Origin: Acidobacteriota bacterium
GTDB lineage: Bacteria; Acidobacteriota; Thermoanaerobaculia; Thermoanaerobaculales; Sulfomarinibacteraceae
Direction: 5' to 3'
Length of the DNA stretch: 34,777 bases
Assembly: GCA_024641545.1 (NCBI GenBank)
Contig: JAHECW010000041.1
Span: 1 to 34,777, forward strand
Under the pieces are notes generated by a model. The model was not told the origin of the DNA. It searched no databases and saw nothing but the letters and a program-made list of their open reading frames with translations. Position 1 is the stretch's first letter. Each line of letters begins with the position of its first letter. This document shows positions 3,095-33,329 of the stretch, one piece after another. A program made the position numbers and the translations under genes.

Positions 3095-3403
3095 ACCTTC
3101 TCCAAAAAGAAAAATTGAGCGCGACTTCACAGCAGCCACACAATGATGTACGGATATTCCCCTCCGCCGGTTCCGCCGGAGTCGTCGGCCTGCGAAGGCG
3201 GTTATAGGGAGGGAGTGAGACGTGAGACGTGAGACGTGAGACGTGAGACGTGAGACGTGAGACGTCAGATGTTAGAAAGTTAGTAGGTAAGGTAGTCAGG
3301 AAGTCAGGAAGAAAAAGAGTCAAAAGCCAGGAGTCAGGACCCCTCACCTCCTCACAGCGAGCGAAGCGAGCGCTGACAGCGAGCAACGCGAGCGCTCACC
3401 TCC
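3095..3403. other. Repeat-filled intergenic region
   Basis: This gap of about 309 bp between two minus-strand genes holds no convincing gene. It contains a heptamer tandem repeat (3215-3263), an A/G-rich stretch with words such as tcaggaag in direct repeat (about 3265-3340), two near-identical 22-mers (3355-3398) and two identical 13-mers (3343-3355, 3395-3407). On the minus strand a TATAAC hexamer (3206-3201), about 107 bases before the tricorn start, resembles a -10 box, with the heptamer array where a -35 box would sit. No good -35 match is seen. Confidence 0.7.
3215..3263. repeat. Heptamer tandem repeat, 7 x GTGAGAC
   Basis: Seven uninterrupted copies of GTGAGAC (GTCTCAC on the other strand) fill 3215-3263, followed by a decayed unit, gtcagat. 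Perfect heptamer arrays of this size are prone to slippage in copy number. The array lies about 120-170 bp upstream of the tricorn start, in the probable promoter region, outside any real gene. There is no unique spacer, so it is not a CRISPR array. Confidence 0.95.
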
Positions 3404-3407
3404 TCAC
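3343..3407. repeat. Two 22-bp repeats bracketed by identical 13-mers
   Basis: CTCACCTCCTCAC occurs at 3343-3355 and again at 3395-3407, exactly 52 bases apart. Between them are two tandem 22-mers, 3355-3376 and 3377-3398, identical at 19 of 22 positions (cagcgagc... to ...gcgagcgct plus two bases). The right 13-mer overlaps the stop codon of the gene ending at 3404. The bracketed arrangement looks like a small inserted or expanded element rather than chance. Confidence 0.8.
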
Positions 3408-6400
3408 TTCTGCACCCGGGTGATCACGAACGGGTCGTCTCCCTTCATGAAACTGACCTCGACGGTGGTTCGCTGGCCGTCGACGATGAGAACCGTCGTC
3501 GTCAGCTTGCGGCCGGGGATCATCACCATCATCGGATACTCACCCGCCGGGATCTTGGAGAGATTGAAACGATCATAGGCCTTGTCGTGGATCTCGTCCC
3601 GGAACCAGATCGTGCAGCGGACGGGTTTGGATCTCACCTGCAGCGACCCCAGCCCGAGGTGGACGACCTCGACCTTGGAGGCCTTGAGATCTCCGTGCAC
3701 GGTGTTCTCGGCCCCGGGCTCGATGGTGATCACCGAGGTCACCGTCTGGTAGCCGTCCTTCTTGAAGCTGATGGTGTGCTCACCGACCGGAATACCGCCG
3801 ATGGAGAGTTGCGGAGTCGTCTTTTCTTCGACCCGACCGTCGATCTCGACGGTGATGTTCTGCGGCGCCGAGGTCACGACCAGCGAACCGACCTCCTGGA
3901 CCGACGGAACGGCGGCCTGCGGCGAGGTCGGAAGGGCGACGACAACCGGGATGAACTTCCCGACCTCGACCTCGACCGGCCGATTGAGAACGTCGACCTC
4001 GAAACTCTGGGGCTGGAAACCGTCCTTTTCCACCCGAAGGGTGTGACGACCCCGCTTGACGTCGCTGAGGAAGAGTCCGTCTTCCCGGGCGCTCGTGGTT
4101 CCCATGAACTCACCGTCGAAGTAGATCTGCAGCCCGGGCTCGGCGGAAACCTGGATCCCGCCGGCCGACGAGACCGCGGTCGCCGCGACCGCGGTGGCGG
4201 CACCGGCGGCGGGCGGCTTCGTCGTCGCGCCCGGTTGGGTGTCGGAGCGAGTGGTTTCTCCAGCCGCCGGAATCGCACCGGCGGCAACGGTCGCGCCGGC
4301 GGCGGCTGCCGCGGGTGCGACATCCGCGGTTGCGGATGCGATCTCGACCTTCGGCAGCACCAGAGCATCGCCAAGCCGCCAGAAGGGTGCGGCATCCAGT
4401 GGTTCCGGCGGCCAGACGAGACGACCGGCGAACTCGACGGCGGCGGCGGCGTCGGCCTCGAGCAGGATGCGATCCGCGGCGAGTCCGTACGCCGCGGCGG
4501 AAACCCGATTGACATAGTCCTGATGGCCGTCGTATCGCTCGTCGATGGAGGGCCTGGGATCGGCGGTCGCCGCTCGTTCCTCTTCGCTCGTCGGGAAGAA
4601 CCAGAAGGAACCGTCAAACCGGCTGAGAAACTCCGGCGCGCCGAACTCGGCCGTCCTCGGGTTCCAACCCTGATAGGTGCCCAGCGGAACCTCGATCTCG
4701 GGCAGCCGGATGCCGCCCAGTTCATTTCCATCCGCGTCGAACGCAGGGACCAGGGTCTGGTACGGCTCACCCACCTCGGGCGGAACCCGGGTGAACACCC
4801 CGGTTGTCCAGAAATCGGGTCCGTAGTCGACCCGCGGCGGCCGGAGATTTCGCCCCGGGTGGCGCATCCCCGGTATCGCGGGGAAACGTCGCCGGTGTTC
4901 CTCGGCGGTAATGAGCCCGCCCCCGTCGATCCGCGGATAGCGGCTCGGGGGCGGTTCCACATCCTCACTCACCCACCGATCCAGATTGACCAACATGGCC
5001 CGCTGAACCGGAGCCACGTCGAGGGGATTGCGCTCGTGCTCGGTGATCGTCCGGGCCCGAGTCGCCGCACCGCCGTGGGGGGCGCCGTTGGTCATGTAGT
5101 AGCGGACGAGGGGGTGGATCCGAGCATCCGCCCCGCCCTCCGGATCGGTGTGGACCAACGAGGCCGACCGGGTCCAGTACTCGAGGGCGTTGTTGGTCAT
5201 GATGATCTTCGGCATCCGGCCGAGCCGTTTGGCCTCGGCCAGGACGTCGTTGGCGGCCGGCGCCCCGTCGGGAAGGAAATTGAAGGGCGGGTGATCGGCC
5301 GGGAAGTAGTTGCCTTCGAGATCGCTGGGGTGGTGCGTGGTCTGGGCGAAACGGTGGTTGAAGCCACCCTTGCCGGCGCCGGCGACGTGGATCCGCGCGC
5401 CCTCGAAGACCATCCGTCCGCGTTCGTCGACGTGGAACCCCTGCCACAACATCTGGACGATGAACCGACCGGACTGCGAGACCCCGAAGATGTAGGCAAG
5501 ATCCACCGTCGAGGCCGGATCCCCTCCGCCGGCACGAACGGCCAACGGATTCGGGTTGCCGTAGCCGTCCTCGCCCTCGAAGTGGAAGAACGCCACGGCG
5601 TCGCGAACCGCCGCCAGCCCGAGGCCCACCACCCGCGGGTTTTCGGCCTCGTAGATGAGCTCGTAGATCTTGCCGGGGAGGAGGCCGCCGTCGACGACGA
5701 TCTGGGTCGGATCGGGCGCCGACACACCGTTTTCGGAACGGGAAAAGCTCCATTGGTCGTTGGGAATCGCCCGCCGCCGGGCGGTCGGGGCGTCGCGGAC
5801 GGTCAGCGACGCTCCCGAGTTATCGGTCGGATCGTGGGCCGGATAGCACCGGCTGCCGCCCCAGGCCAGGGGCATCGACGGCGCGGCCTCGCGACCAAAG
5901 CTGTTGACGATCTCGGCGGCGATCCTCTGCCGGATGGCGGCCCCGCCTTCGGTGGCGATGGGGAGCTCGATCTGGAGCCGGTCGTCGCCCGACGCGACAT
6001 CCCAGTTCCACGCCGACCACAACAACGAATACCCCTGCTCCATGAGGAAGCCGTTGCCGGCGTCCTCGGCGGTCGACGGGTCGTTGGTGCGGGTCCCTCC
6101 GTTGATGTGGCGCAGCATGTAGAGGTTGCCGCGGTTGTTGACGTCGTAAAGGAGCCGGCCGTTGCCGCGCGCCAGGTCGACCGGCTTGAGCAGGAGGAAG
6201 TCGCCCTGAAAGTGAACCCGGCCGTCGGCCCCTCGGGGCGCCAACTCGAGATCGACGATGGCGGCGTTGGCGGGATTCGCCGGGTCAACGGCGTAGAACA
6301 ACGTGCCGCGGATCTTCTCGTACGGCCCGGTCTCACCGAACGCCATCCCGTCCGCAAAGGTCTCCCGCGAGGCGATCTCGATGCGTTCGACCTCCGCCGG

Positions 6401-17678: not shown

Positions 17679-19868
17679 TCAGGACGGATCGCCCTCGATC
17701 TCGGCGAGCAGGGCCGCGATGGCTGCGTTGTCGGGGCGGAGATCGGCGGCCCTTCGGCACGCCGCCAGCGCCTGCGAAGTCCGACCCAGACCCAGGTTGG
17801 CCTTCGCCAGGAGGTAATAGGTGTAGTAGAGGTAGTCGCTCTCGGGATACTCCTCGGCGCTGAGTCGGAGAAAGGCCGCCGCCGGCTCGGGACGGTCCCC
17901 GGCCAGGAGCTTGCTGCCCGCGGCGAGGAGATCGAACTCCGTGAAGTCGTAGATGTCCGCCTGATCGGCCTTGAGTTCGCGGTATCGCATCAGGGCGGCC
18001 TCGGTTCCGTGGTCGCGGAGGGTGAAGTAGAGCTCGGCGTGGATGTCCTTCTTCGGCGCACCGCCCTTCGGCGACTCGAGGGCATCGGCGATGTAGTCGA
18101 TCCACTGGTCGGTGCTGACGTACGACCCGGCGTAATCCTTCCACGGGTCCAGGATGCCGGCCTCCTTGAGTTCCTCGGTGGTCCGCCCGTCCTCGAGCCC
18201 GGATCGAACCGCCTCCACGGTACCGACGAGCATGTCGTGATAGGGATCGAGATCCTGCCAGCTGCCGTTGGCGTTGTGACCCGAAACGATGACCACGTCC
18301 TCCGGCAGCTCATCCATGGCCCGGGTGATCAGCGGAGCGAAAGCGAGCGCATCGCCGTCGGAATCGATCGACGGCAGATTGAAACCGTTGGTCAGCGAGC
18401 TCAGGTGGACGACCTTGGCTCCGGTGAAGTGGACCATGATCTCGTTGTCGTCGTGGCCCCCGGCCATGGCCACGAGCTCGATTTCCTCGCCGTTGAAGAA
18501 GAGCTTCATCCGATCGGCGAAGCTGAGATCCGGCATGGTGGCGTCGGGAAACTCGTCAAAGAGGTACGAGCCGCTGCGCAGTTTTCCCCGCACCAGGTCG
18601 TGGGCGATGATCAACGGTTCCTCACCGAAGATGGCGGCGCCCCCAACGTGCTCGACGTGGCGGTGGCTGAAAACGATGATCTTCGGCACGCCTTGGCGAA
18701 ACCCGTCGACCAACCGCTTCAAAGCCTCCGCCTCACCCGCGGCCTGGGTGTCGACGAGGAGTACGCCGTCCGAACCGGCGAAGGCGAGCGAGTTGGTGGT
18801 GTAGGCTCCCTGGTCGGTGGTCAACCGGTAGAGCCCTTCGGAGAGCCGCGTCACCTCGATGGTGGGCTTCCACCCGACCGCATCCCTACCGACCATTGAG
18901 AGGACCCCCTCCCCGGACATCCAGAAGAGATCTGCGTTGTCGTCGTAAACCGGCTCACCGTAGTCATCATATCGCCAGACCGCGGGGGGATTGGCGCCCT
19001 GACCCGAGCGCTCGCTGACGAAGAAGAGCCGCTTGCCATCCGGCGAGAGAGCGGCGAACTTCGGCGACTGGCCCTCGAGCCCCGGAATCGGTCGACCCTC
19101 GGCCCAACCTCCAACCCCGTCGGGCAGGCTGAGCCGGAGTTCGAGCCCGGCTTCGACCGCGGTCGCGGAGATCAGGAACCGCCGATCCGGATCGATGAAC
19201 GGCGCCACTTCGCCGGCCTCGGTGTTGATTCCTCCGGCCAGGAGCTCGACCACCGGGTAGGTGCCGTCCACCTGCCGCACCAGGTAGATATCATGGCCGC
19301 CGACGCCCTCGTCCGTCTCGATCGACGCAAAGATGTTGCCGTCGCGGTCGAGGCTGAACCCGCCGTTGACGTTGGTCGAATTGACCGGCGAGTCGAGCAG
19401 GAACGGTTCTGCCCAGCTCTCGCCCTGCCGCCGGGCGACCCAGATCCGCGACGCCTCGAATCCCTCCGGATCACCCGGCGCCGGTCGCTTGGAGCTGAAG
19501 AGGAGGGCCTGCCCACCGGGAGCGAACGCCGCCGCGCCATCCATTGTGCGGCCCGAAAACGGCAGCGGTTGCGGTGCGACCCAACACCCCGAGTCGTCCA
19601 TCCGGCTGAAAAAGAGGGTGCCGATCCTCACCTCGCCGACATGACCGAGAATCCGTAGAACCACCTCGCGCCCATCCTCGGAAAAGACCGGCGGCCAGTC
19701 GTCGTGGTGCTGGGTCGATGCGACTCCCGGCGCAAAGAGCGAAACCTCGTCGGTGGCCTCGGCGCCGAAATACGGCCCGCGAGCGACACACCGTTGTTCG
19801 GCAATCCCAGGGTTCGCCCCCATCAACACCAGACCCAGAACCAGGCCTCGCCCGAAGACAACTCGCAT
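17679..19868 (-). CDS. Exported beta-propeller/MBL-fold/TPR protein
   Basis: The 729-residue protein starts at ATG 19868 behind GGAGAAGG. Residues 1-23 are a signal peptide. Residues 30-325 contain WD40-like (PD40) blades (FAPGGQALLFSS, LSPDGKRLFFVS). Residues 335-540 are a metallo-beta-lactamase fold, and residues 600-729 form TPR-like helices. The usual MBL motif HxHxDH is HRHVEH at 402-407, so the second metal ligand Asp is Glu406. Other likely ligands are H472 (GGHDDNE) and H531 (VSGHNANG); the bridging Asp is not obvious. It is probably the first gene of the operon; the next gene starts about 105 bp after its stop. An active hydrolase is possible but not assured. Confidence 0.85.
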   Translation of the reverse strand: MRVVFGRGLVLGLVLMGANPGIAEQRCVARGPYFGAEATDEVSLFAPGVASTQHHDDWPPVFSEDGREVVLRILGHVGEVRIGTLFFSRMDDSGCWVAPQPLPFSGRTMDGAAAFAPGGQALLFSSKRPAPGDPEGFEASRIWVARRQGESWAEPFLLDSPVNSTNVNGGFSLDRDGNIFASIETDEGVGGHDIYLVRQVDGTYPVVELLAGGINTEAGEVAPFIDPDRRFLISATAVEAGLELRLSLPDGVGGWAEGRPIPGLEGQSPKFAALSPDGKRLFFVSERSGQGANPPAVWRYDDYGEPVYDDNADLFWMSGEGVLSMVGRDAVGWKPTIEVTRLSEGLYRLTTDQGAYTTNSLAFAGSDGVLLVDTQAAGEAEALKRLVDGFRQGVPKIIVFSHRHVEHVGGAAIFGEEPLIIAHDLVRGKLRSGSYLFDEFPDATMPDLSFADRMKLFFNGEEIELVAMAGGHDDNEIMVHFTGAKVVHLSSLTNGFNLPSIDSDGDALAFAPLITRAMDELPEDVVIVSGHNANGSWQDLDPYHDMLVGTVEAVRSGLEDGRTTEELKEAGILDPWKDYAGSYVSTDQWIDYIADALESPKGGAPKKDIHAELYFTLRDHGTEAALMRYRELKADQADIYDFTEFDLLAAGSKLLAGDRPEPAAAFLRLSAEEYPESDYLYYTYYLLAKANLGLGRTSQALAACRRAADLRPDNAAIAALLAEIEGDPS

Positions 19869-21630: not shown

Positions 21631-22782
21631 CTACCGGATACCCCGGGCAATCCCCTTCTCGACGACCCCACGCAACCGCTGGTAGGCGCCGGGGAAACGA
21701 TCGGCGACCATCCGCATGGGACCGATGGCCTGGAGCCCACAGTCGGCGGCAAGCTGTCCAAATCGGGTGTTGGGGGGCGCGTAACGCGGTCGTTCTACCA
21801 GCCGCAAGGCGACGTCGAGGTGGCAGGCCGAGACGCACAGGCCGCAACCGATACAGCTCGGTTCGTCGAGGTTCACCCGCTCGTCGACGATCGTCAGCGC
21901 TCCGGTCGGACACCGACCCGCGCACGCTCCACAGCCCTCACACGCCGCCCGGTCGACCGCGGCCATGAAGTGACTCTTGGCGATCATCCACGGGTAGCTG
22001 AACCTCGTGATGATCTTCAGGCCGGTGCAGCAGCACGAACAGCAGGAACAAAGGAAGTTCGCCCGCGCCACGTTGTCGGTGAGGTGAACCAGACCCGCTT
22101 CGGCGGCGCGCTCGGCAACTTCGAAAAGCTCCGCCTTCTCGGCCTTTCGCGCGAGCCCCCGATCGACCAGAAACTCAGCCAACGAGCCGAAGGCCATACA
22201 CGTTTCCCTCGGCTTGGAGCACGGCTCACCGCGGAGATCGGCGGCGTGCCGGCAACAGCACGCCGTGAGGCTGAAGGAAGTGTGCGAGTCGATGAGCTCC
22301 GACACCCGGTCGGTGGGCAGCACGCCGACCTGAGTGTCGATGTGCTTCTCGACCGGGATGATCTTGATCAGGCCGTTCGGTTTGGCGGAGAAGTAGTCCC
22401 GGGTGTAATACCGCTCGTAGAGCTCGGCGAAGCGTCTCGCCTCGGGGTCGGTGCGGCGGCTCCACATCACGACCTCGAAGAGGCCCGGAACGATCGGCAG
22501 GAGCATGAATCTGCGCTGCCCGTCGGCCGCATACGAGGCGATCACCCCACGGCCGTCGAGGGCGGCGAGCAGTCGCTCGGCGGCCTCGGCGGAAATGCGT
22601 CCTGCGCGCGCGATCGTCGCTGCGGTGGCGGGCCGAACCGGAAACGAAGCCGCCAGATCGGCCTCCTCCTCGGAGAATACAGTGCTCATCATCTCGGTGA
22701 GCACCTCGTTGACCGGCGATCGGAACGGGATCCTCCCGTATCGCCGGGCGAGCTTCCAATGCGCGGCAGTGACTGCAGACAT
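21631..22782 (-). CDS. Cysteine-rich 4Fe-4S protein with N-terminal helical domain
   Basis: The 383-residue protein starts at ATG 22782. Residues 30-100 look like a winged-helix or helical region. Two ferredoxin-type clusters are clear: C281/C284/C287 with C291, and C310/C313/C316 with C320. Additional cysteines sit at 175-177 (ACCCRH), 188, 195, and in CSCCSCCC at 245-252, which could bind another metal centre. No signal peptide or clear membrane segment. The neighbour on the upstream side is the DUF885-like gene (132 bp away), then a Tat-exported DUF362 protein; DUF362 domains are often found with ferredoxin domains, so electron transfer or metal-site maturation is possible, but no substrate is indicated. 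Confidence 0.82.
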   Translation of the reverse strand: MSAVTAAHWKLARRYGRIPFRSPVNEVLTEMMSTVFSEEEADLAASFPVRPATAATIARAGRISAEAAERLLAALDGRGVIASYAADGQRRFMLLPIVPGLFEVVMWSRRTDPEARRFAELYERYYTRDYFSAKPNGLIKIIPVEKHIDTQVGVLPTDRVSELIDSHTSFSLTACCCRHAADLRGEPCSKPRETCMAFGSLAEFLVDRGLARKAEKAELFEVAERAAEAGLVHLTDNVARANFLCSCCSCCCTGLKIITRFSYPWMIAKSHFMAAVDRAACEGCGACAGRCPTGALTIVDERVNLDEPSCIGCGLCVSACHLDVALRLVERPRYAPPNTRFGQLAADCGLQAIGPMRMVADRFPGAYQRLRGVVEKGIARGIR

Positions 22783-22914
22783 TCAGGCTCCCGGACGCAG
22801 GTGGCGCCCCGCTGCATCCATCATAGCCCGCATCGCGGCGAGGCCGTCACCGGTTCGGCCCCGTCCGAACCGGGGATCTCGCCGGGATCGCCGCAGGACC
22901 GACGACCGGCCGGA

Positions 22915-24294
22915 TCAGCCCGACCCGCTCGCTCGTCGACCGGTCCCGGCAGGGACATCGCTGCCGAGCACCTCGTTGATGGTGACCACGTCGACCAACC
23001 CGCTGCAGCCATAGAGCGCGGGCAGGATGACCGCGGGATCGTGGTTTCGCCGCCACGCGGCGACGGCGTCGGTTCCCGCCCGGTACGACGGCAGGTACAT
23101 CCGCCCGAGGATCGGGTGCTGCGCCCACGGGCCCGAGAGCTTCCCGGCGCGCTCTTCCGAGACGAGAAAGTCGCGGCGCAGGATCTCCGCCACCTCGAGT
23201 TGCGGCAGGCCTTCGTTCCAGGTCAGATACGACGACTGGTTCTTGGCGTCGTCCTGGAGCAGCGACAGGATGGTTCCGATCTGGAGATCACGGTCGGGCA
23301 GGTCGCCGATCTCGGTCACCCCGTAGGCCATGAGCAGGGCGTTGTTGGCGATGCCCTCGGCCAGGGTCGAGTAGCGCGAGTTCATGGTCAGCACGGTTCC
23401 TTCGAACCCCACCTTGCCGAGCCGGTAAAGGTGCTGCACGTACGCGAAGGTCATGACATGGCCCGGAACCACCTCGTGGCTCACCAGGTGCATGAACTCG
23501 GGGATTGAAATCTCGAGCGACGCGTTGATCTCGTAGGACGCGTCGTAGAGCGGCCGCCCGTCGGCGGTTCGGGCCCGCCCGAGGTAGTTCATGGACCCCG
23601 AGAACCAGGCGTCCTTGATGGGCAGGAACTCGACGTTGGCTCGCGGTACGCCGTGCATCTCCTCCGGCAGGGACGGCATCACATGCGCGCGGGTCCCGGC
23701 ATCGAGTTCGGCGATGAAGGCGCGGGCCAGTCCACCGATCGACGCGGCTGGAACCATGCGATCGCGCCGCCAGGCATCCGCCGCATCGAGGATCGATTCC
23801 TCGGGCGAATAGCCGGCGTCGCCGAGCAAACCGCCGAGGGCTTCGAGCATCGCTCGAGAATCCGACGGTGTCGGTGCGGCGCCCGTCGACGCTTCCACCG
23901 AACGCGCATACGGCACCGGTTCACCTCGATCGAGCGCCTCCATGGCGAGATCCCACATGACCTCGAGACAGATCGACAGACCCGCGAGGAACGAGCCCCT
24001 GCCGCCGGCCTGCCCCGACCCGTCCGAAGCCACGAGATCGAGGGCCCCGCGAAGATCCACCGCAGCGAGATAGGCCTCGACGGCGGCGTGATCCACCTTC
24101 CCGGCCGAGAGCCCGCCCGCGGCGCGCACCGCAGCCGCAGTGGCGTCGGTGTAGCTCTTCGGGAGCGCCTCGTCGGAGAACCACGAATCGGCGATGAACC
24201 GCCCCGTGCCCGACGGGTTCATCACATCCCCGCCCCACAAGGTGTCGATGCCGAGAATCGCTTCGGCCAACGCGCGATCGAGAGTCAGGCCCAT
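22915..24294 (-). CDS. DUF885-like zinc metallopeptidase
   Basis: Start is ATG 24294 with a perfect GGAGG just upstream, giving 459 residues; a longer open frame upstream lacks a ribosome site. The motif H273-E274-V-V-P-G-H279 is the HExxPGH zinc-binding pattern seen in DUF885/M32-like gluzincins, and E313 in LAEGIANN is a candidate third ligand. There is no signal peptide, so it is probably cytoplasmic. DUF885 family members are putative carboxypeptidases or dipeptidases, but the N-terminal half here is divergent and I would not name a specificity. It lies 172 bp after the DUF362 gene. Confidence 0.78.
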   Translation of the reverse strand: MGLTLDRALAEAILGIDTLWGGDVMNPSGTGRFIADSWFSDEALPKSYTDATAAAVRAAGGLSAGKVDHAAVEAYLAAVDLRGALDLVASDGSGQAGGRGSFLAGLSICLEVMWDLAMEALDRGEPVPYARSVEASTGAAPTPSDSRAMLEALGGLLGDAGYSPEESILDAADAWRRDRMVPAASIGGLARAFIAELDAGTRAHVMPSLPEEMHGVPRANVEFLPIKDAWFSGSMNYLGRARTADGRPLYDASYEINASLEISIPEFMHLVSHEVVPGHVMTFAYVQHLYRLGKVGFEGTVLTMNSRYSTLAEGIANNALLMAYGVTEIGDLPDRDLQIGTILSLLQDDAKNQSSYLTWNEGLPQLEVAEILRRDFLVSEERAGKLSGPWAQHPILGRMYLPSYRAGTDAVAAWRRNHDPAVILPALYGCSGLVDVVTINEVLGSDVPAGTGRRASGSG

Positions 24295-24466
24295 GTTTCC
24301 TCCGGACCAGCAGTGTAACGCGGTGACGGGTCGTTGTTGACGCGGACCGGCGTGCGGCCGGCCGAAACGCCCGATTCCACACAGCTCGCGGTCGCCGGTT
24401 GCTCGGCCGGCCGGGGCGCCGGCGCCGCGAGGCATCACGCGGTCATCCTTGTCGGCTTTCGGCCCC

Positions 24467-25417
24467 TCAACCCAGCGCGGCCTCGTGGACGACGGTCTTC
24501 GCCGGATCCGCCGTCCCCAGGCCGTGCGCCTCCGCCATGGCGATCATCGGCACGTCGTGCGGTTGCAGCCCGAGATATCGTGTCCCGTAGGCGTCGATGG
24601 CCACCATGTCGACCGAAGCCACCACCGTCTGCGGGGCGGCCAGCTTGCCGGGACCGAAGGGCCCGTTGGTGGTCAGGATCTCACCCGCGTCGAGGATGCA
24701 GAGATCGGGTCGCCGAACCAGATTGAGGTCGGCAACGCACTGCGAAAGATGATTCAGATCGGGGTACCAGTCCTCGGAATCGGGGTTGTTCCCGACGTGA
24801 AAGAACCGGCACGTGGGATCGTGCGGGCAGGCGCCCATGGTGTTCTTGAGCGCGCCGGTGAACTCGCAGCCCTTGTGGTTCTTGGCGATGGCGACATTGA
24901 GGTAGTGGTCGGCTTCGAGCAGGCGACGATCGACATGCGCCTGTCTGAGCGCCACTCCGCCGGCGATCTCCACCACCTTCATGTCGCGCTCGCAGACGTT
25001 GACGCTCTCGATCAGCCCCCGGTGCTCCGCCGCCCGACCGCAGCGCTGCCAGAAATCGTCGTTGGCGGCCTTGATGAGCCGGATTTCCTTGGCGCCGGCA
25101 TCGGCACAGAGGGTGAGGACGGCGAGCAGGACACCCGGATCGACGATGCTCCCGCGGTGCTTGAACGCGATGTTCGCGTTGATCACGACGCTCGATCCCG
25201 TGGCAACGAACCGAGCCATCCCACCCACCGCGTTCACAGCGGCGACGGTGTTTGCGAAGCCGTCGGGGCTCGTCACCGCCGCCAGCCCCACCGCCGCGCT
25301 CTCGTCGGCCGAAGCCGTGCCGGCAAACCCGGCGAACAGACCGTCTCCGATGCCCACCGTCGCACCCACCGCCGCGCTGCCCTTGATGAAGCGCCGTCGT
25401 GTGATTCCGCTCTTCAT
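24467..25417 (-). CDS. Tat-exported DUF362 protein
   Basis: This 316-residue protein starts at ATG 25417, overlapping the upstream DUF6599 gene by four bases (ATGA) with GGGGGAG before it. The N-terminus has a twin-arginine motif TRRRFIK (residues 6-12) and a hydrophobic Ala/Gly run, so it should be exported folded, often meaning a cofactor is loaded in the cytoplasm. The DUF362 core includes NHKGCEFTGALKNTMG and LDAGEILTTNGPFG, with additional cysteines (CEFTG, GACPHDPTC). DUF362 members are often linked to iron-sulfur chemistry. The exact function is unknown. Confidence 0.87.
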   Translation of the reverse strand: MKSGITRRRFIKGSAAVGATVGIGDGLFAGFAGTASADESAAVGLAAVTSPDGFANTVAAVNAVGGMARFVATGSSVVINANIAFKHRGSIVDPGVLLAVLTLCADAGAKEIRLIKAANDDFWQRCGRAAEHRGLIESVNVCERDMKVVEIAGGVALRQAHVDRRLLEADHYLNVAIAKNHKGCEFTGALKNTMGACPHDPTCRFFHVGNNPDSEDWYPDLNHLSQCVADLNLVRRPDLCILDAGEILTTNGPFGPGKLAAPQTVVASVDMVAIDAYGTRYLGLQPHDVPMIAMAEAHGLGTADPAKTVVHEAALG

Positions 25418-25935
25418 GATGCTCCCCCGAGCCCCGCTGCCGCCGCGCGGGCGAGCAGCAGGATCCCAGCCGTGGTTTCAGGTTGGCTGTCAAAACCCGT
25501 GATCGTTACTAAGAAGCGGCCCGACCGGAAGTTGAGGTAGTAGTCCTCGCCCGCCGCCTCGTCGCCGATCTGAAGCGGTTCGCCCGAGCCCCCGGTCTTG
25601 TCCGCGTAGATGCGCTCGGCGCCGTCGATGTCCTTCATCTCGAACACCTCGAGCGAGATCGAGCGGCCGTCGCCGTCGGCGTACTGCGTCGCCAGCGCCT
25701 GGACGAAACCGAATCGGTGGTAGACCTCGGCGCCGCCGTTGATGAGTTCGAAGAGCGCGTCGCCGACATAGATTTCGGGCTCGTACTCCTGCTGCCAACC
25801 GCTGACGACCGCCGCGGCCGCGCCGATTCCCCGCGACGGCGGATCGACCACGGGTTGGTCGGTGCACTGGATGACCACCAGTAGCATCAATCCCGCGGCG
25901 GCGGTTCTGGACCCACTCCGAAGAAAACTCGTCAT
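25414..25935 (-). CDS. DUF6599 family envelope protein
   Basis: I chose ATG 25935, with GGAGG five bases upstream, giving 173 residues; a longer frame to 26052 passes through a palindromic region and is unlikely. A signal peptide at 1-23 ends at C24 (VVIQC); Gln before the Cys makes a lipobox doubtful. The body has the DUF6599 hallmark YVGDALFELINGGAEVYHRFGF and EVFEMKD. No known function. It is translationally coupled to the DUF362 gene, which supports a shared envelope role. Confidence 0.82.
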   Translation of the reverse strand: MTSFLRSGSRTAAAGLMLLVVIQCTDQPVVDPPSRGIGAAAAVVSGWQQEYEPEIYVGDALFELINGGAEVYHRFGFVQALATQYADGDGRSISLEVFEMKDIDGAERIYADKTGGSGEPLQIGDEAAGEDYYLNFRSGRFLVTITGFDSQPETTAGILLLARAAAAGLGGAS

Positions 25936-26289
25936 CTCGGCCTCCGTGCCAATTCTAGCCCGGACCATCCCTCTGCTGTCGGCTGCAGCCGATGATCCAT
26001 CGGCTGCAGCCGGGCTCCGGATCCTCGACCCCCGCCGCCGGCCGAGAACCAAGTGGAAACATCATCAGAGCCGCGCCGGAAACCCGCCGGACCCGCTTTC
26101 GACCGCCGCCCGGACCCCGATCGACGAGGGGACTCACCAAAGAATCCATGCACTTTCGCGCGCGCTGTTGTAGGTTGGAGGTGGTCGATTTCAGGTTGCT
26201 CGCCGTTGTGTTCCCCTCTGCCAGCGTCAATGCGATCCCGATCGAGTCGACCCCGACGAACCGTTTGCAGCATCGGAAAGGGAGTGTTT
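25936..26289. other. Divergent intergenic region with palindromes
   Basis: This 354-bp gap separates the DUF6599/DUF362 operon from the DUF3553 gene. It contains the paired palindromes at 25980-26012 and, near 26150-26230, short text without a convincing promoter. A GGGAG ribosome site at 26280-26284 belongs to the DUF3553 gene. Longer frames on both strands read as noise. Confidence 0.6.
25980..26012. promoter_or_regulatory. Double 12-bp palindrome / perfect 14-bp hairpin
   Basis: CGGCTGCAGCCG, itself palindromic, occurs at 25980-25991 and 26001-26012, start-to-start 21 bp (two helical turns). The copies also pair with each other: a perfect 14-bp stem (25980-25993 with 25999-26012) and a 5-base loop. 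It sits 45 bp before the minus-strand start of the DUF6599 gene. Without a T run it is not a clear terminator; an operator for a dimeric regulator is the best guess. Confidence 0.6.
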
Positions 26290-27198
26290 GTGACTGATCA
26301 GAAGATCGAGGTGGGGACCATTGTTCATCATCCCAAGCGACCCGCGTGGGGCCCGGCCAAGGCTCTCGCAGTCGGCGCCGGAGGCAACGTGACGCTGTAT
26401 TTCCGGGATCTCGAGGAGGCCAAACCGAACGATGCGGTCAAGACCATCTCGACAAGCGTCATCGGGCTCGAGATCGCCGAAGATCAGGCCGATTTCATGC
26501 TCGACAACCTCCCGGTTTTCGACAACGGAAAGTTCAAGGGTCTGAGAAAACCCAGGCTGAGCCTCGATCAGGCGGTCCAGGCGTTCATCGACAAACAGGC
26601 CGCCGCCTTCGACAACCCGAAGTACATCGAGGAACAGCGCGCGCCCAAGCTCAAGGCCCACGAAATGTGGGTCGAGATCCTGGGCGAAGGCCAGGGCGCC
26701 GACCTCCTGGATGCGGGCGACGTTGCCGAGGTCCGCAAGCGTCTGCTGAAGATCGACGCCAAACTCGATCTCTTGAGCCCGCAGGAGAAGGCGGTTCTCA
26801 AACGGGGCCTCAAGAGCGACGAGGCCGAGCAGTTTCTCCGCGCCCTGATGGGGGTCGCCGCCGAGCCCCAGGTCGAGCAGTCGGCTTTTCAGAAGCTGAT
26901 CGACGCCGTGGATCTGGTGATGGAGAAGGAACCGGGCAGCCGCAGCACGAACTGGCCCGTTCTGACCCAATTCCCTTTCATCGCCGACCCCGAGCACCAC
27001 ATCGAGTTCAAACCCGCCGTGGTGCAGAAGTGTGCGGCGCGGCTGAACTTCGACCTGCGCTATTCGGCGACGCCCAACTGGTGGGGTTACGAACGGCTCC
27101 TGCAGCTGGCAAGAGCGCTGCAGACTCGTTTGGAATCGATCGGAGCGAAGGACCTCATCGATGTGCACTGGTTCATGCAGGTGATCGCGACGGTTTGA
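26290..27198 (+). CDS. DUF3553-domain protein
   Basis: The protein starts at GTG 26290 with GGGAG five bases upstream (302 residues); an upstream ATG frame has no family signal. Residues 7-55 match DUF3553 (VHHPKRPAWGPAKALAVGAGG ends in a VTLYFRDL strand), a small SH3-like beta domain. The rest is mostly alpha-helical, with acidic and basic patches, and no recognised domain. Role unknown; the fold suggests nucleic-acid or protein binding. It may share a transcript with the downstream ADC-like gene, 104 bp away. Confidence 0.75.
   Translation: MTDQKIEVGTIVHHPKRPAWGPAKALAVGAGGNVTLYFRDLEEAKPNDAVKTISTSVIGLEIAEDQADFMLDNLPVFDNGKFKGLRKPRLSLDQAVQAFIDKQAAAFDNPKYIEEQRAPKLKAHEMWVEILGEGQGADLLDAGDVAEVRKRLLKIDAKLDLLSPQEKAVLKRGLKSDEAEQFLRALMGVAAEPQVEQSAFQKLIDAVDLVMEKEPGSRSTNWPVLTQFPFIADPEHHIEFKPAVVQKCAARLNFDLRYSATPNWWGYERLLQLARALQTRLESIGAKDLIDVHWFMQVIATV
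27107..27122 (+). promoter_or_regulatory. Candidate sigma-54 promoter upstream of ADC-like gene
   Basis: TGGCAAGAGCGCTGCA has GG and GC separated by exactly 10 bases and matches the -24/-12 consensus (YTGGCACG-N4-TTGCW) at 11 of 13 positions. It lies in the end of the DUF3553 gene, about 170 bp before the ADC-like start. About one such site is expected by chance in 35 kb, so the call rests on position near a sigma-54 activator gene. Confidence 0.25.
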
Positions 27199-27302
27199 GG
27201 GTCGCCCCGAGCAACGTCCGCTCGAACCGGGCGCGGGGGTTCGACGGGGGATCCGGATTCGAATCTGCAGGCCGGCCCAAACCGGAGCTGGAGGCTCACG
27301 AA

Positions 27303-28163
27303 GTGAAACCGAACACCTACATCGATCCCGGCCTCGTGGACAATGCCGGCATGTTCGCCGACGACTTCTTCCGGCGGTTCACCCTTCGCCCCGCTCCCAC
27401 CCCCTTGGAGCTGGACACCGGCCTCTCGAAGACCTATTCCTTCCCCACTTTCTATGCCGATGTGACCTGCGCCATCGCGATCTTTCTCTGCGATTACCGG
27501 CGCGCCGAAGCGATGATGCCGCACCCGTTGATGCAACCCCTGAAGATGCCGAGAGGGAGATCGGTGGTTCTCTTCTCGTGCTACGAGTACCGAAACGTGA
27601 TGAACATCGCCCCGTACAACGAGATCGCCATGACCATCCCGATCATGGTCGGCGGCGGGTGGGCGCCGCCGTTGCTGCCGCTGGCCTTGGATTTCAAGAG
27701 GAAAGGCTACTACGTCTTCTCCATGCCGGTGACGTCACTGGAGAATCAGATCCGCGGCACGAGAATCTGGGGTTTGCCCAAAATCGTGGAGGAAATCGAC
27801 ATCTCCACCGACGGCAGCCACTGCACCACCGTTGCCAGAGACTCGAGCGGCGAGATCTACTTCGAGCTCGCGGTGCCCAAGACGGGTTCCGCCAAACACT
27901 TCGACGAGACCGGCCGGCTCTTCAGCGTCCGCGACGGGCGGCTTCTCAAGAGTCGGACCAGCTTCAAAGGCGATTTCGCGGTCAACACCAACCCCGGCTT
28001 GTTGTGGAAAAAAGGTCTCAAGGCCGAGGTCCCGGCGCTCAGACTCGGGTCGACGGCGCGAGCCGACGATCTCCGGGCGCTGGAGATCGAGGAAACCGCA
28101 TTCCAGTTCCGCTTCTCGGCGAGCATGAACAGTTGCTTCGAGTTGCCGACGGGAACCGAGTAA
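27303..28163 (+). CDS. Acetoacetate decarboxylase superfamily protein
   Basis: The 286-residue protein starts at GTG 27303 with GGAGG eight bases upstream. It has the ADC core: an NEIAMTIP strand with a Glu, and RIWGLPKIVEE with a candidate Schiff-base lysine K160. In Clostridium Adc the catalytic Lys115 has Lys116 beside it to lower its pKa; here that position is isoleucine. Members without decarboxylase activity are known in this superfamily, so another reaction (for example aldol or hydrolytic chemistry) is possible. It ends 17 bp before the convergent sigma-54 regulator gene. Confidence 0.85.
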   Translation: MKPNTYIDPGLVDNAGMFADDFFRRFTLRPAPTPLELDTGLSKTYSFPTFYADVTCAIAIFLCDYRRAEAMMPHPLMQPLKMPRGRSVVLFSCYEYRNVMNIAPYNEIAMTIPIMVGGGWAPPLLPLALDFKRKGYYVFSMPVTSLENQIRGTRIWGLPKIVEEIDISTDGSHCTTVARDSSGEIYFELAVPKTGSAKHFDETGRLFSVRDGRLLKSRTSFKGDFAVNTNPGLLWKKGLKAEVPALRLGSTARADDLRALEIEETAFQFRFSASMNSCFELPTGTE

Positions 28164-28180
28164 GGCGCCCCGGACGCGGC

Positions 28181-29941
28181 TCAGTCGCCGGCCGCGACAT
28201 TCGGATGTTCGGCGAGGAATCGGTACAGGGTCGCCCGCGACACATCGAGTCCTCTCGCAGCCTCCGACCGGTTGCCCTCGGCTTTCTCGAGGGCCTCGAC
28301 AACCGCCTCCTCGGTCAGTGATTTCCTCACTTTCTTCGCCGGTGACAAACCGGCGACCACGCGACTGAAGCTCGGCGGAAGGTGCTCCGGCAGGATGACA
28401 CCCGCCATGCATTTGATAAAGGCGTACCGAATGGCATTCTGGAGCTCGCGGATATTTCCCGGCCATGCGTAGGCCATGAAAATCTCGAGCACCTCCGGCG
28501 AAAGGGAGACCAGCCTCCCGCCGGAGATCGCCGATTCCTTTTCGACGATGAACTCGGAGATCAGCGGCAGGTCGTCGATGCGATCGCGTAACGGCGGCAA
28601 CGTGATCGGCACCACACAGAGCCGGTAGAACAGATCCTCCCTGAAATTTCCGATCTCGACCTCGTGACGGAGGTCCTTGTTGGTTGCACAAACCACACGC
28701 ACGTCGACGGTTACGGATTTCTCCCCTCCCACCCTCTCGAAGGACCCTTCCTGCAGGACTCTGAGCAGTTTGACCTGCATCGCCGGACTGAGATCGCCGA
28801 TCTCGTCGAGGAAAATCGTGCCGCCGTGGGCGAGCTGGAACCTCCCTTTTCGCTCCCGGACCGCACCGGTGAACGCACCCCTCTCGTGGCCGAAAAGCTC
28901 GCTCTCCAAGAGGCCGTCGGGGATTGCGCCGCAGTTCACCGGCACGAAAGGTTTCCTCGATCGCGCCCCCTGGCTGTGGATCGCCCCGGCCACCAGTTCC
29001 TTACCGGTGCCGCTCTCACCGAGAACCATGGCGGGGACATTCAGATCTGCAATCTCTCTGATGGTGTTGAAGATCTCGACCATCGCGGGGGTCGCTCCCA
29101 CAATCCCGGCAAAGGACTTTTCTGCCGTCAGGAGCCGACGGAGGCTCGCGAGCTCGGTGATGTCCTCCATGATGAGAATCGCCAGATCCTCGCCCCGATG
29201 GTGGAGACCGGCCGAGCTGAGCTGGAGCGTGAGTTGCCGCGAATACCTGGTGTCACGAGAGTCGATCCTGCAATGGACCTTCCTGGTGGTATGGCCTTCG
29301 ATCGCGGTCTTGATCGCGATGTGGACCTTGCACCCTTCACATCCGTCGAGGTTGCCGCACCGCCCGGGACTTTCCAGGGCGGTCGCACACCCCAGCACGT
29401 CCCCGATGCGGCTGCCGAAGCTCTCGTCCTCGGTAACATCGAACGCATCAACGAATTCGCGGTTGACCATTCGGATCCGGTGATCCGAACCGACGACGAT
29501 GATCGAGCAGGGAACCCCCCCGAAGACCGCGTTCAGGAAGGCCTGCTGATCCCTTAGCGAGCGGTCGAGCTGGTGCTTGTAGAGAGCGATCTCGATCGTC
29601 GAGTGGAGATCGCGGTCCGAGAACGGCTTGAGAATGAACCCGAAGGGATCGGCCACCTTGGCTCTCTCCAGGGTGTCGTCGTCGGCGAGGGAAGTGACGA
29701 AGACCACCGGGAGGTCGAGCTGCTCTCGGATCGTCTCCGCGGCCTTGATCCCATCGACCGAACCCTTGAGGTGGATATCCATCAACACGAGATCGGGAGA
29801 GGATCGTTCGGCCTCTGCGATTGCACTTTCCCCCGAGATGACCCATCCGGCGATTCCGTAGCCCTGCGAGACCAATCGATTCTGTACGTCCTTGGCCACG
29901 AGACCCTCGTCCTCGACGATCAGAATCGACTTTTTGGGCAA
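28181..29941 (-). CDS. Sigma-54-dependent response regulator with PAS domain
   Basis: The 586-residue protein starts at TTG 29941 behind GGGAGG at six bases. Domains in order: receiver (1-120, phospho-acceptor D55, K105 near FILKPF), PAS (about 130-260) with cysteines C185, C195, C201 and C204, AAA+ core (265-510: Walker A GESGTGKE 308-315, GAFTGA 355-360 for sigma-54 contact, LDEIGD), and a Fis-type HTH (545-580). GAFTGA makes it a true sigma-54 activator. The C-x9-C-x5-C-x2-C pattern in the PAS domain resembles the Cys motif seen in many PAS sensors and could bind metal or a cluster. Last gene of the signalling cluster. Confidence 0.93.
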   Translation of the reverse strand: MPKKSILIVEDEGLVAKDVQNRLVSQGYGIAGWVISGESAIAEAERSSPDLVLMDIHLKGSVDGIKAAETIREQLDLPVVFVTSLADDDTLERAKVADPFGFILKPFSDRDLHSTIEIALYKHQLDRSLRDQQAFLNAVFGGVPCSIIVVGSDHRIRMVNREFVDAFDVTEDESFGSRIGDVLGCATALESPGRCGNLDGCEGCKVHIAIKTAIEGHTTRKVHCRIDSRDTRYSRQLTLQLSSAGLHHRGEDLAILIMEDITELASLRRLLTAEKSFAGIVGATPAMVEIFNTIREIADLNVPAMVLGESGTGKELVAGAIHSQGARSRKPFVPVNCGAIPDGLLESELFGHERGAFTGAVRERKGRFQLAHGGTIFLDEIGDLSPAMQVKLLRVLQEGSFERVGGEKSVTVDVRVVCATNKDLRHEVEIGNFREDLFYRLCVVPITLPPLRDRIDDLPLISEFIVEKESAISGGRLVSLSPEVLEIFMAYAWPGNIRELQNAIRYAFIKCMAGVILPEHLPPSFSRVVAGLSPAKKVRKSLTEEAVVEALEKAEGNRSEAARGLDVSRATLYRFLAEHPNVAAGD

Positions 29942-30002
29942 CTCGGGCCTCCCGCTCGCGGAACATCTCGACGGCTGATCGCGACCACTCTAGCAAATGG
30001 TT

Positions 30003-31259
30003 CTAGTGGTCGCCGAGCGGAAAACGCACCCTGACGTCCGCCCCGCCCTCCCAGCGCATCTCGAGATCACCGCCAAGCTGCTTCGCCAGCAGTTCTACCA
30101 ACTGCAGCCCGATACCTCCTCGTCGATCGGCGCCGGTGTCCCCTCGGCGCCCATCTCCGTTGTCGATCACCGCCAGCTCGACGCGGCCGTCATTGTTCAT
30201 CTCCAGAGCGACAACGACCTCACCCCTTCCACCGTCGGGGAAGGCGTGCTCGAGGGCATTGCCGATCAGCTCGTTCAGAATCAGGCCACACGGGACGGCC
30301 ACGTCGATGGTCACGGCCAAGTCCGCGATCTGGAGCCTGAGATCGACCTTGCCGACCCGGCCGGGATGGCTCTGGAAAATCGAATCGGTCAGGCGCCGTG
30401 TGTAGTCGCCGAGATCGACTCGCCGGAAGTCCTCCGACCGGTACGCCTGGTCGTGGGCCAACGCCATCGACCTGATCCGGCCCTGGATCTTCTTCATCCC
30501 GTCCACGGTCGCTTGATCAACGACGCCCTCGCTCTGGAGACCGATCATGCTCAGGATGACCGCCATGTTGTTCTTGACCCGGTGGTGGACCTCCCTCAGC
30601 AACGCATCCTTCTCGCCGAGAGCGCGCTGAAGCGCCTCTTCGGCTTTCAGCCGTTCCTGTTCCCTGAGATCCCTGGCCAACCGCGCATGCAGGATCGGGC
30701 CGATGCGGCGGGCTATGGACTCCATCAGGTCCCGGTCCGAATCGACGTAGTCGGTGTCACGGTTCGCCGCCGCAAGCAGACCGATGAGTTCATCCCCGTC
30801 AACGATCGGGACGAACACGCACCTCGCGATCTCGATGCGGCCGTCCGGCAAACGGCCCGATGAGTTCGAGAGCATGGTCCGTTTCGTCGTCAAGCACTCG
30901 CCCCAGAGCCCGCCCCAGGAGTCCGCCGGGAAGACATTGCTCAGATCGGAAATCCGGCTCTCCTCGAAGATCTCCCGAGTCATTGACGGACACACCAGGC
31001 TTCCCTCCGGGTCGATGTAGCCGAAGACGCCGTGCCTGCTGTCAAGCACCTCGAGCACGATGTCCAGCACCCTTTCGTACATCTCATCATCCCCGACGGT
31101 CAGAAAAACATCGGCGATCCTGTTGGAGATCGCCAGCTCTCTTTCCGATCCCGACAACGCCGAGTCGGCCTTCCTGCGTCCGCTGGTTTCGCTTGTCAGA
31201 ACGCCTCCTTGAGCGGCTCCGCACCACGAGCATCCGATGTCAGTTGATGTCCGCCGCAC
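30003..31259 (-). CDS. GAF-domain histidine kinase (HisKA_2 type), soluble
   Basis: The GTG at 31259 gives 418 residues and overlaps the upstream regulator gene by 20 bp but has no ribosome site. An AAGGAGG at 31210-31204 sits four bases before an in-frame CTG at 31199, so the true start may be CTG (398 residues). Domains: GAF (about 50-190), coiled coil (190-215), HisKA_2 with H225 in EVHHRVKNN, and an ATPase domain with NELIGNALEH and DNGDG. No membrane segment: it senses a cytoplasmic signal. The 61-bp gap to the sigma-54 regulator suggests they are partners. Confidence 0.9.
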   Translation of the reverse strand: MRRTSTDIGCSWCGAAQGGVLTSETSGRRKADSALSGSERELAISNRIADVFLTVGDDEMYERVLDIVLEVLDSRHGVFGYIDPEGSLVCPSMTREIFEESRISDLSNVFPADSWGGLWGECLTTKRTMLSNSSGRLPDGRIEIARCVFVPIVDGDELIGLLAAANRDTDYVDSDRDLMESIARRIGPILHARLARDLREQERLKAEEALQRALGEKDALLREVHHRVKNNMAVILSMIGLQSEGVVDQATVDGMKKIQGRIRSMALAHDQAYRSEDFRRVDLGDYTRRLTDSIFQSHPGRVGKVDLRLQIADLAVTIDVAVPCGLILNELIGNALEHAFPDGGRGEVVVALEMNNDGRVELAVIDNGDGRRGDTGADRRGGIGLQLVELLAKQLGGDLEMRWEGGADVRVRFPLGDH

Positions 31260-31626
31260 GAGACAGGAAGAACGTCCCGAGGGCTATCTCCAACTCGCCG
31301 TACTCGAGTGGTTTCACAAAGACTCCGATTGGCGAGATGTCGGCGGCTCTCGTCATCAATTCCTCGACAGGATAGCCGGACAGGAAGGCCGTCCGGATTC
31401 CGAAGCGGGCACGGATGTGGCGGGCCGCCTCGATCCCGTCCATCTCCCCCTTGAGGCTCACATCCATCAAGATACAGCCCGGCTTCTCTCGTTCGGCGCA
31501 GTCGATCGCGTCCCGACCCGAACCGACCATCCCACACACCGTGTAACCCATCCCCTCGAGGGCCCCCTTCAGTTCAAATGCGACGATGAACTCGTCCTCG
31601 ACCACGAGGATCCTGGGTTTGTTCAT
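31240..31626 (-). CDS. Single-domain response regulator
   Basis: This 128-residue receiver-only protein starts at ATG 31626, overlapping the membrane kinase stop by four bases (ATGA). It has E10/D11, phospho-acceptor D55 in LMDVSLKG and the conserved lysine in VFVKPLE. It has no output domain, so it acts by passing or sinking phosphate between the two kinases of the cluster, or by binding a protein target. Confidence 0.93.
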   Translation of the reverse strand: MNKPRILVVEDEFIVAFELKGALEGMGYTVCGMVGSGRDAIDCAEREKPGCILMDVSLKGEMDGIEAARHIRARFGIRTAFLSGYPVEELMTRAADISPIGVFVKPLEYGELEIALGTFFLSRAADIN

Positions 31627-33329
31627 CGTCCGAGCGCCCGGGCGGGTTCGGTCGGAGTGAAAGAAATGGTGAAACGGGTCCCATGGTCGCGGTCGAGGAA
31701 GACGCTTCCTCCGAGCTGACTTTCCACCAGACCGACAACCAACCGCATCCCCATCGTGTCGGTGTTTCTGATATCGATCTCAGCGGGGATCCCGGCACCA
31801 TCGTCACACACGACGAGCGTGATCCTGCCGTCCGCCGCGGACGCCGCCTCGATCCCGATCTCGCCGGCCCGGCCGTCTCGGAATGCGTATTTCAGAGAGT
31901 TGGAAAGGAGCTCATTGATCACCAGTCCGCAGGGCACGGTGTCATCGATTCCGAGGGTGACGTCTTTGGCGCCGATCCTGAGGTTGATCCTGTCGGGTCC
32001 GGCGCCGTACATCCGGACCAGGCTCGTCGCGAGCTTGGCGACATAATCCCCGAGGTCGATTCGGCCCAGGTTGCCGGACTGGTAGAGAATTTCGTGGATC
32101 AAAGCCATCGCGCGGACCCGACTCTGGCTTTCTTGAAATACCTTGCTCAACCGCGCATCCTCGATGCCTCTCGCCTGCAGATTGAGCAGGCTGGAAATGA
32201 CCTGCATGTTGTTCTTGACCCGGTGGTGAATCTCCCTCAGCAGGACCTCCTTCTCGGCGAGTGAACCCTGCACTGCCAATTCGGCCTTCTTGCGGTCCGT
32301 GGTGTCCTCGATCACGGCGATGAAGTAGCGCGGCTCTCCGGATCGGTCCTTGACCAGGGACACGGTCAGACTGACCCACACAATCGAGGAGTCCTGTCGC
32401 ACGTATCGCTTCTCGGTGGAGAAGGTCTCGGTTTCTCCATCGAGAATGCGCCGCACGTGATCGAGATATGTCGCGAGATCATCCGGGTGCGCGATGTCCT
32501 GAAATCCGAGCTCGAGCAGCTTGTCGCTGGTGTAGCCCACAATTCGGCAGAACTTCTGATTGAGGCTGACAAAACGCCCCTCCAGAGAAACGTGGGCGAT
32601 ACCGGCGCCGGCATGCTCGAAGGTTGTGCGGAAACGCTCTTCGCTCGCCTGGAGCGCACCGACAGTCGCCTCGAGATCCCGCGACCGGCGTTCGAGAGCG
32701 GTCACCAGTGGACTGCTGACGCGAATGAACAGGATCGACCCGGTGATCACCACCAGCAGCGCGAATCCCGCGGCTGCCAACCCGGCCTTCTTGAACGGCG
32801 CCTGCACTTCGTTCAGGTCGATCTTCGCGACGATGCCGAGATCGAGTTCGGCGACCGGCTCATATGCGGCGACCACCGTCTCTCCCCGATAGTCGAGCCC
32901 GACCACTGTTCCCGACTCTCCGAGGAGCGCTCGCCGCATCGGCTCGGCGAGGTCAGAGAGAAACGGCACCGGCTCCGGATGCTCCACGGTCTGGTGGCGG
33001 TGCCCGAGCACGAAGACGATGAGCCCGCCCTCCAACTTGCCAAGGGTGAACTCTCCGGTTTTCCCGAAACCCTCGTATTCTCGGTGGGCCTCGTCGATCT
33101 GGCTCAGCGTCGCCTCTTTCCAGCCGCCGAGATGGCCGCTGTTGTGGACCCGATCGTATCGGGCAACCGCCTCGATCAGGCGCGCCTGACTCTGGGCCGT
33201 CTCGACCAACCGCAGCCGTTCCTCCTCGAAGGCAGTGTCGTACAGCATCCAGATTGTCGTCCCGGCGACCAGCAAAGAACCGATCGCCATGATCAGAACC
33301 AGGATCAACACACGGAGTCGTTCAGCCAA
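31623..33329 (-). CDS. Membrane sensor histidine kinase (periplasmic sensor, PAS, HisKA_2)
   Basis: The 568-residue protein starts at TTG 33329, with GGGG five bases upstream. TM1 (about 7-28) and TM2 (182-203) bracket a periplasmic sensor of about 150 residues that looks like a Cache-type domain. A PAS domain (about 228-345) is followed by HisKA_2 with H368 in EIHHRVKNN, and an ATPase domain with NELLSNSLKY and DDGAGIP. HisKA_2 kinases commonly donate to single receivers. A good sigma-70 promoter is 30 bp upstream. The signal is unknown. Confidence 0.93.
   Translation of the reverse strand: MAERLRVLILVLIMAIGSLLVAGTTIWMLYDTAFEEERLRLVETAQSQARLIEAVARYDRVHNSGHLGGWKEATLSQIDEAHREYEGFGKTGEFTLGKLEGGLIVFVLGHRHQTVEHPEPVPFLSDLAEPMRRALLGESGTVVGLDYRGETVVAAYEPVAELDLGIVAKIDLNEVQAPFKKAGLAAAGFALLVVITGSILFIRVSSPLVTALERRSRDLEATVGALQASEERFRTTFEHAGAGIAHVSLEGRFVSLNQKFCRIVGYTSDKLLELGFQDIAHPDDLATYLDHVRRILDGETETFSTEKRYVRQDSSIVWVSLTVSLVKDRSGEPRYFIAVIEDTTDRKKAELAVQGSLAEKEVLLREIHHRVKNNMQVISSLLNLQARGIEDARLSKVFQESQSRVRAMALIHEILYQSGNLGRIDLGDYVAKLATSLVRMYGAGPDRINLRIGAKDVTLGIDDTVPCGLVINELLSNSLKYAFRDGRAGEIGIEAASAADGRITLVVCDDGAGIPAEIDIRNTDTMGMRLVVGLVESQLGGSVFLDRDHGTRFTISFTPTEPARALGR

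Follow-up and report, generated by a model that had tools for sequence, protein, structure and literature searches.

The closest described counterpart of the exported protein considered here is the lactate racemase LarA (DUF2088/Lar_N), which uses three residues, His174, Lys184 and His200, separated by spacings of 10 and 16 (PMC11770544). The Pfam clan CL0471 joins the DUF362 family and the domain of LarA (PMC11770544), and one of the catalytic histidines is also missing from some LarA homologues (PMC12611868). Some members of the DUF362 family, but not all, contain a nested Fe-S binding motif, which is not family-defining (PMC7955657). With respect to metallopeptidases, the DUF885 family (PF05960) is represented by the structures 3o0y, 3u24 and 3iuk. 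No explanation of the function of DUF6599 proteins, and no report linking OPT transporters with DUF885 proteins, was found in the literature.

The window, which refers to the whole stretch of 34,777 nucleotides analysed from an Acidobacteriota bacterium, is located on contig C97 of a source assembly of 5.38 Mb that is 99% complete. The minus strand carries four genes coding for a DUF6599 protein, a DUF362 protein with a Tat signal, a peptidase with an HExxPGH motif and a Cys-rich Fe-S protein, which an earlier note had proposed to constitute a single envelope redox or maturation system. The four genes are all present where that note had placed them, and their DUF6599, DUF362 and Fer4 domains score above the Pfam cut-offs. 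The features are as follows:

25414 to 25935, minus strand: DUF6599 protein of 173 aa, a probable lipoprotein, first gene of the pair (Pfam PF20244)
24467 to 25417, minus strand: DUF362 protein of 316 aa with a Tat signal (PF04015 and TAT_signal)
24797 to 24883, minus strand: DUF362 motif K179-x-H181-x9-K191-N ... H207, kept unchanged in all 23 sequences of the subfamily
24299 to 24303, minus strand: GGAGG ribosome-binding site of the peptidase gene, read from the sequence
22915 to 24294, minus strand: predicted DUF885-fold metallopeptidase of 459 aa, cytosolic, start placed by the ribosome site and alignment
23458 to 23478, minus strand: HEVVPGH zinc motif, residues 273-279, with H273, E274, P277, G278 and H279 invariant in 26 sequences
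23356 to 23358, minus strand: Glu313 within EGIANN, which probably provides the third zinc ligand, invariant in 26 sequences
21631 to 22782, minus strand: Fe-S protein of 383 aa with a CxCR..C..C site, a CSCCSCCC site and two 4Fe-4S ferredoxin motifs (Pfam Fer4 and alignment)
22027 to 22050, minus strand: CSCCSCCC motif, residues 245-252, its six cysteines invariant in an alignment of eight family members

The genes are separated by gaps of 172 and 132 bp and, in one case, overlap by ATGA; since all four share one strand and the gaps are of this size, their co-transcription in the window species is possible. Searches for promoters and terminators gave no signal exceeding the shuffled background. 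Among the four genes, a linkage beyond chance occurs only between DUF6599 and DUF362, and the stretch is likely to be a chance juxtaposition of three units, namely the DUF6599-DUF362 pair, the peptidase and the Fe-S protein. This tells apart three modules which, lumped together, would be mistaken for a single pathway.

DUF6599 and DUF362 form a genuine pair, conserved through the Acidobacteriota. The DUF6599 protein matches PF20244 with E=1.7e-22 (80.4 bits for a cut-off of 27), and its leader consists of a hydrophobic stretch followed by a Cys residue, the lipobox being clearer (LLAIGC) in a relative at L002/L064; the ATG at 25935 is the preferred start, the reading frame being extendable upstream to 26052. 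The DUF362 protein, whose start overlaps the DUF6599 stop codon in the ATGA, matches PF04015 with E=7.7e-29 (101.6 bits for a cut-off of 24), and its Tat signal exceeds the cut-off of TAT_signal (PF10518, E=3.2e-5), with the twin Arg present in 22 of the 23 sequences of the subfamily. A search of 396 Acidobacteriota genomes, with hits accepted at an E of 5e-45 or better, recovered the window-type DUF362 subfamily in 21 genomes besides the window's own (loci L185-L205). DUF6599 occurs within 1.5 kb of DUF362 at 15 of these 21 distant loci, either before or after it, so that the coupling of a signal-peptide protein to a Tat DUF362 protein, as the earlier note had described it, is borne out by both the overlap and the adjacency. 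Neither the peptidase nor the Fe-S protein lies within 1.5 kb of DUF362 at any of the 21 loci, and the other neighbours, seen in wider views, vary from locus to locus. No DUF362 relatives were found in viral contigs. On the other side of the pair, positions 26284-33311 of the window comprise, in this order, a gene of unknown function, an acetoacetate decarboxylase-like gene, a sigma-54 response regulator, histidine kinases and a receiver protein; the same order is kept next to DUF6599-DUF362 in the sister genome G001 (L063), and the pair therefore stands in genus-level synteny on that side.

In the DUF362 subfamily, the distance from H181 to K191 is 10 residues in all 23 sequences, and from K191 to H207 it is 15 or 16, the window protein exhibiting spacings of 10 and 16; N192, G195, D230, N232 and D243 are also among the residues that never vary in the 23-member alignment. 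The LarA homologues of these same bacteria display the sequence HHYFxGFGGGPKMVFPG...NH with the LarA spacings of 10 and 16. In a profile alignment of DUF362 with LarA, the first His falls on His and Lys on Lys, with weak E-values of 9e-4 and 0.007 and a match probability of 6-23%, the control families scoring poorer still (0.18 and 0.04). From these sequence comparisons we infer that the DUF362 protein carries a LarA-type ligand-binding site, with H181, K191 and H207 at the positions equivalent to His174, Lys184 and His200 of a protein of the same clan. In contrast to LarA, the DUF362 protein is Tat-exported, shorter and paired with DUF6599, and it has no equivalent of His108, the second catalytic histidine of LarA, the aligned position reading IKAANDD without any His. 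Neither the window DUF362 protein nor its locus gave a match to Lar_N (PF09861), a PDB sequence search with the protein returned no significant match, and its single-sequence structure model (pLDDT 39) was useless. No conserved set of Fe-S cysteines occurs across the 23 members, only C104 being kept in 20 of them, and the identification of DUF362 as an Fe-S protein was rejected on this ground; since a conserved Fe-S motif is absent, the protein is not expected to contain iron or sulfide.

Lipoprotein DUF6599 and Tat-exported DUF362 probably make up a translationally coupled envelope module. Within it, the likely role of DUF362 is that of an enzyme or a binding protein from the LarA clan which is exported and whose invariant His/Lys/His site would hold a cofactor or a nucleotide-like ligand. 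This ligand would be loaded before Tat export, and DUF6599 would act as the membrane-anchored partner. The suggestion of the earlier note that Tat export points to a cofactor loaded before export fits the invariant Lys/His/His site. For the unannotated DUF362 and DUF6599, this provides a testable setting, that of a pair which is exported and whose site resembles the one in LarA.

A different role is suggested by a second type of Tat DUF362 protein, which is adjoined by a Fer4_5 polyferredoxin at 24 of 25 readable loci of closer relatives, and at 12 of these by DUF6599 as well. Memo/AMMECR1 is also found at four wider loci of this type, L066 and L067 additionally carry a radical SAM gene and one more DUF362, and the window genome itself possesses a DUF362-polyferredoxin unit on contig C296 (L079). 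The window pair could be read, on these grounds, as an electron-transfer accessory of the envelope that arose by divergence from the DUF6599-DUF362-polyferredoxin unit found beside AmmeMemoRadiSam genes in related Thermoanaerobaculia, and that has lost its polyferredoxin and now serves another redox partner. Both arrangements place DUF6599 next to a Tat DUF362, but the window pair is devoid of polyferredoxin, Memo and radical SAM genes, and the two DUF362 proteins are only about 30% identical. Moreover, the polyferredoxin is missing from all but possibly one of the 21 loci of the window subfamily, whose members are relatives of 35-41% identity, and the subfamily keeps no cysteines that could bind a redox cluster, so that we regard this reading as rather unlikely. 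An envelope redox role, as the earlier note had it, is plausible for the wider DUF362 family because the other Tat DUF362 paralogue adjoins a membrane polyferredoxin. Memo/AMMECR1 and radical SAM genes were not found among the window genes searched. In the Thermoanaerobaculia (L066 and L067, also L065 and L068), a conserved cluster runs DUF6599, Tat DUF362, Fer4_5 polyferredoxin, Memo/AMMECR1 fusion, second DUF362 and radical SAM; it places AmmeMemoRadiSam genes in a context that is linked to the envelope and as yet uncharacterised.

The likeness to LarA also raises the idea that DUF362 is a Tat-exported enzyme of the nickel-pincer nucleotide (NPN), related to LarA but working in the periplasm and with a hydroxy acid as its substrate. 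The H-K-H triad is invariant at LarA-like spacing (PMC11770544), LarC and LarE lie next to each other in the window genome, and LarC occurs in 21 of the 22 genomes with the subfamily as compared to 260 of 374 others in the sampled phylum (Fisher p=0.004, a value that ignores the kinship of the genomes). This co-occurrence follows families, however, and looks phylogenetic because members of family f52 devoid of the DUF362 subfamily also have LarC. Two LarA homologues already serve as clients in G000, the second catalytic His of LarA is missing, and G006, a genome 96% complete whose DUF362 is 41% identical and paired with DUF6599, has neither LarC nor LarE. The NPN enzyme is improbable on this evidence, and NPN as a required cofactor of DUF362 is unsupported, LarC being missing from G006. 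It is very improbable, in turn, that the Tat DUF362 protein is a relative of lactate racemase that receives the nickel-pincer or a similar nucleotide in the cytoplasm, is exported folded and works in the periplasm, anchored by DUF6599. To our knowledge, no extracytoplasmic user of a nickel-pincer-type cofactor was known earlier; if true, this protein would be the first user of an NPN-type cofactor outside the cytoplasm, and a function would be found for both DUF362 and DUF6599. LarA homologues (PF09861) also occur in G004, G006, G012, G015 and G016, where LarC and LarE were undetected, which means either another source of the cofactor or another chemistry.

The peptidase starts at the ATG at 24294 and not at 24438, since GGAGG precedes it and the relatives start there too; because this is the true start, the protein has no signal peptide. 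Its match to Pfam DUF885 (E=0.016, 15.3 bits for a cut-off of 32.4) remains below the cut-off, and all 26 relatives match the same family, with a best E of 2.6e-4. A PDB sequence search returned no significant match. The predicted model (pLDDT 87.8) resembles the DUF885-type structures 3o0y, 3u24 and 3iuk with Z values of 24.9, 22.6 and 22.1, the next family scoring 13.8, so that the "DUF885-like" label given in the earlier note is justified by the predicted fold in spite of the weak Pfam match. The protein shares with DUF885 the HExxPGH motif and the overall predicted fold over 349-383 residues but differs by its 11-12% identity, its shorter length, the missing leader peptide and the linkage of its family to OPT transporters. 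It is probably a zinc peptidase, as judged from its motifs, Glu313 being presumably a zinc ligand as in the DUF885/Peptidase_MA families; both the metal and the substrate are predicted.

A single scan of the collection yielded 151 confirmed relatives of the peptidase, the best 80 of which were examined with flanks of up to 6 kb (L080-L159). An OPT transporter lies within 400 bp upstream of the peptidase in 71 of the best 80 of 151, mostly in Acidobacteriota, and 70 of these 71 pairs are on the same strand and one is divergent; in 24 of the 38 pairs with readable spacing, the genes overlap. The OPT identity of the neighbours was supported by Pfam E-values of 5e-86 and 3.5e-101. The divergent arrangement occurs at L149, a Myxococcales MAG, where OPT and peptidase occupy 2537-4537 and 4676-5983 and are not in tandem. 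The linkage supports an uptake of oligopeptides followed by their hydrolysis in the cytosol, and it provides a testable setting for a DUF885-fold peptidase, which throughout a major soil phylum is tied to the uptake of oligopeptides by OPT. Over its full length, the window peptidase shows 59-84% identity to those of the OPT (PF03169)-peptidase pairs of Acidobacteriota, but its transporter is not adjacent: it has no OPT within 400 bp, DUF362 is its upstream neighbour, and the best OPTs of the window genome, located on other contigs, reach no more than 41% identity to the type of OPT that usually accompanies such a peptidase. The family to which the window belongs (G000, G001 and G009) is among the few without an adjacent OPT. 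Most likely, the window protein cleaves imported oligopeptides in the cytosol and has become separated from its transporter. Such a DUF885-fold zinc peptidase would normally operate with an OPT importer, breaking down the imported peptides, and the two would have been separated in the window genus.

The Fe-S protein matches Pfam Fer4 above the cut-off (E=7.9e-10), and its CSCCSCCC motif, to which the earlier note had drawn attention, is real, the site reading mostly CNCCxCCC in the other family members. In an alignment of nine sequences, its N-terminal region appears winged-helix-like by eye and is accompanied by the CxCR..C..C site, a CxCCxCCC site and the two ferredoxin motifs. Long relatives of 31-38% identity are present in about half of 40 related genomes, often in several copies, in unrelated or mixed gene contexts, one of them beside hydrogenase-like genes. 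The protein is a divergent representative of an Fe-S family that is common and multicopy. The sister genome G001 has no close ortholog (best 33%), and its peptidase gene is followed by a PrsW-like gene instead of the Fe-S gene. The protein would probably act in the cytosol, in electron transfer or redox sensing, and may owe its place to a local rearrangement.

That all four genes form one envelope redox/maturation system, in which the Fe-S protein gives DUF362 electrons or clusters and the peptidase processes DUF362, is barely credible, despite the single strand, the short gaps, the one ATGA overlap and the different Tat DUF362 paralogue beside a polyferredoxin in relatives, since the other genes are found at none of the best 80 of 151 peptidase loci (flanks to 6 kb), neither the peptidase nor the Fe-S protein at any of the 21 DUF362 loci, the peptidase has no export signal, the Fe-S gene is missing after the peptidase in G001 and DUF362 has no conserved Fe-S cysteines. 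The missing linkage contradicts the four-gene system put forward in the earlier note, and the absence of a signal peptide together with the OPT linkage removes the metallopeptidase from any envelope machinery. The same note had named genes unlinked in relatives as evidence against its proposal: DUF6599 and DUF362 were found linked, but the peptidase, the Fe-S protein and the DUF362/DUF6599 pair were not linked with one another. A stretch 25% identical to DUF6599, 4.5 kb from the peptidase at L132, did not recur. The adjacency of DUF362 and the peptidase could be genus-wide, because the contigs of G001 end before a peptidase following DUF362 would be visible. A conserved DUF362-peptidase spacer was considered and discarded, the sister genome (L062) being alike only in about 32 bp before the peptidase start codon.

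Further along the window, the minus-strand gene at 17679-19868 codes for a protein in which PD40 beta-propeller repeats precede an HRHVEH motif resembling that of metallo-beta-lactamases; its C-terminus appears to be TPR-like, and PD40 is its sole Pfam match.
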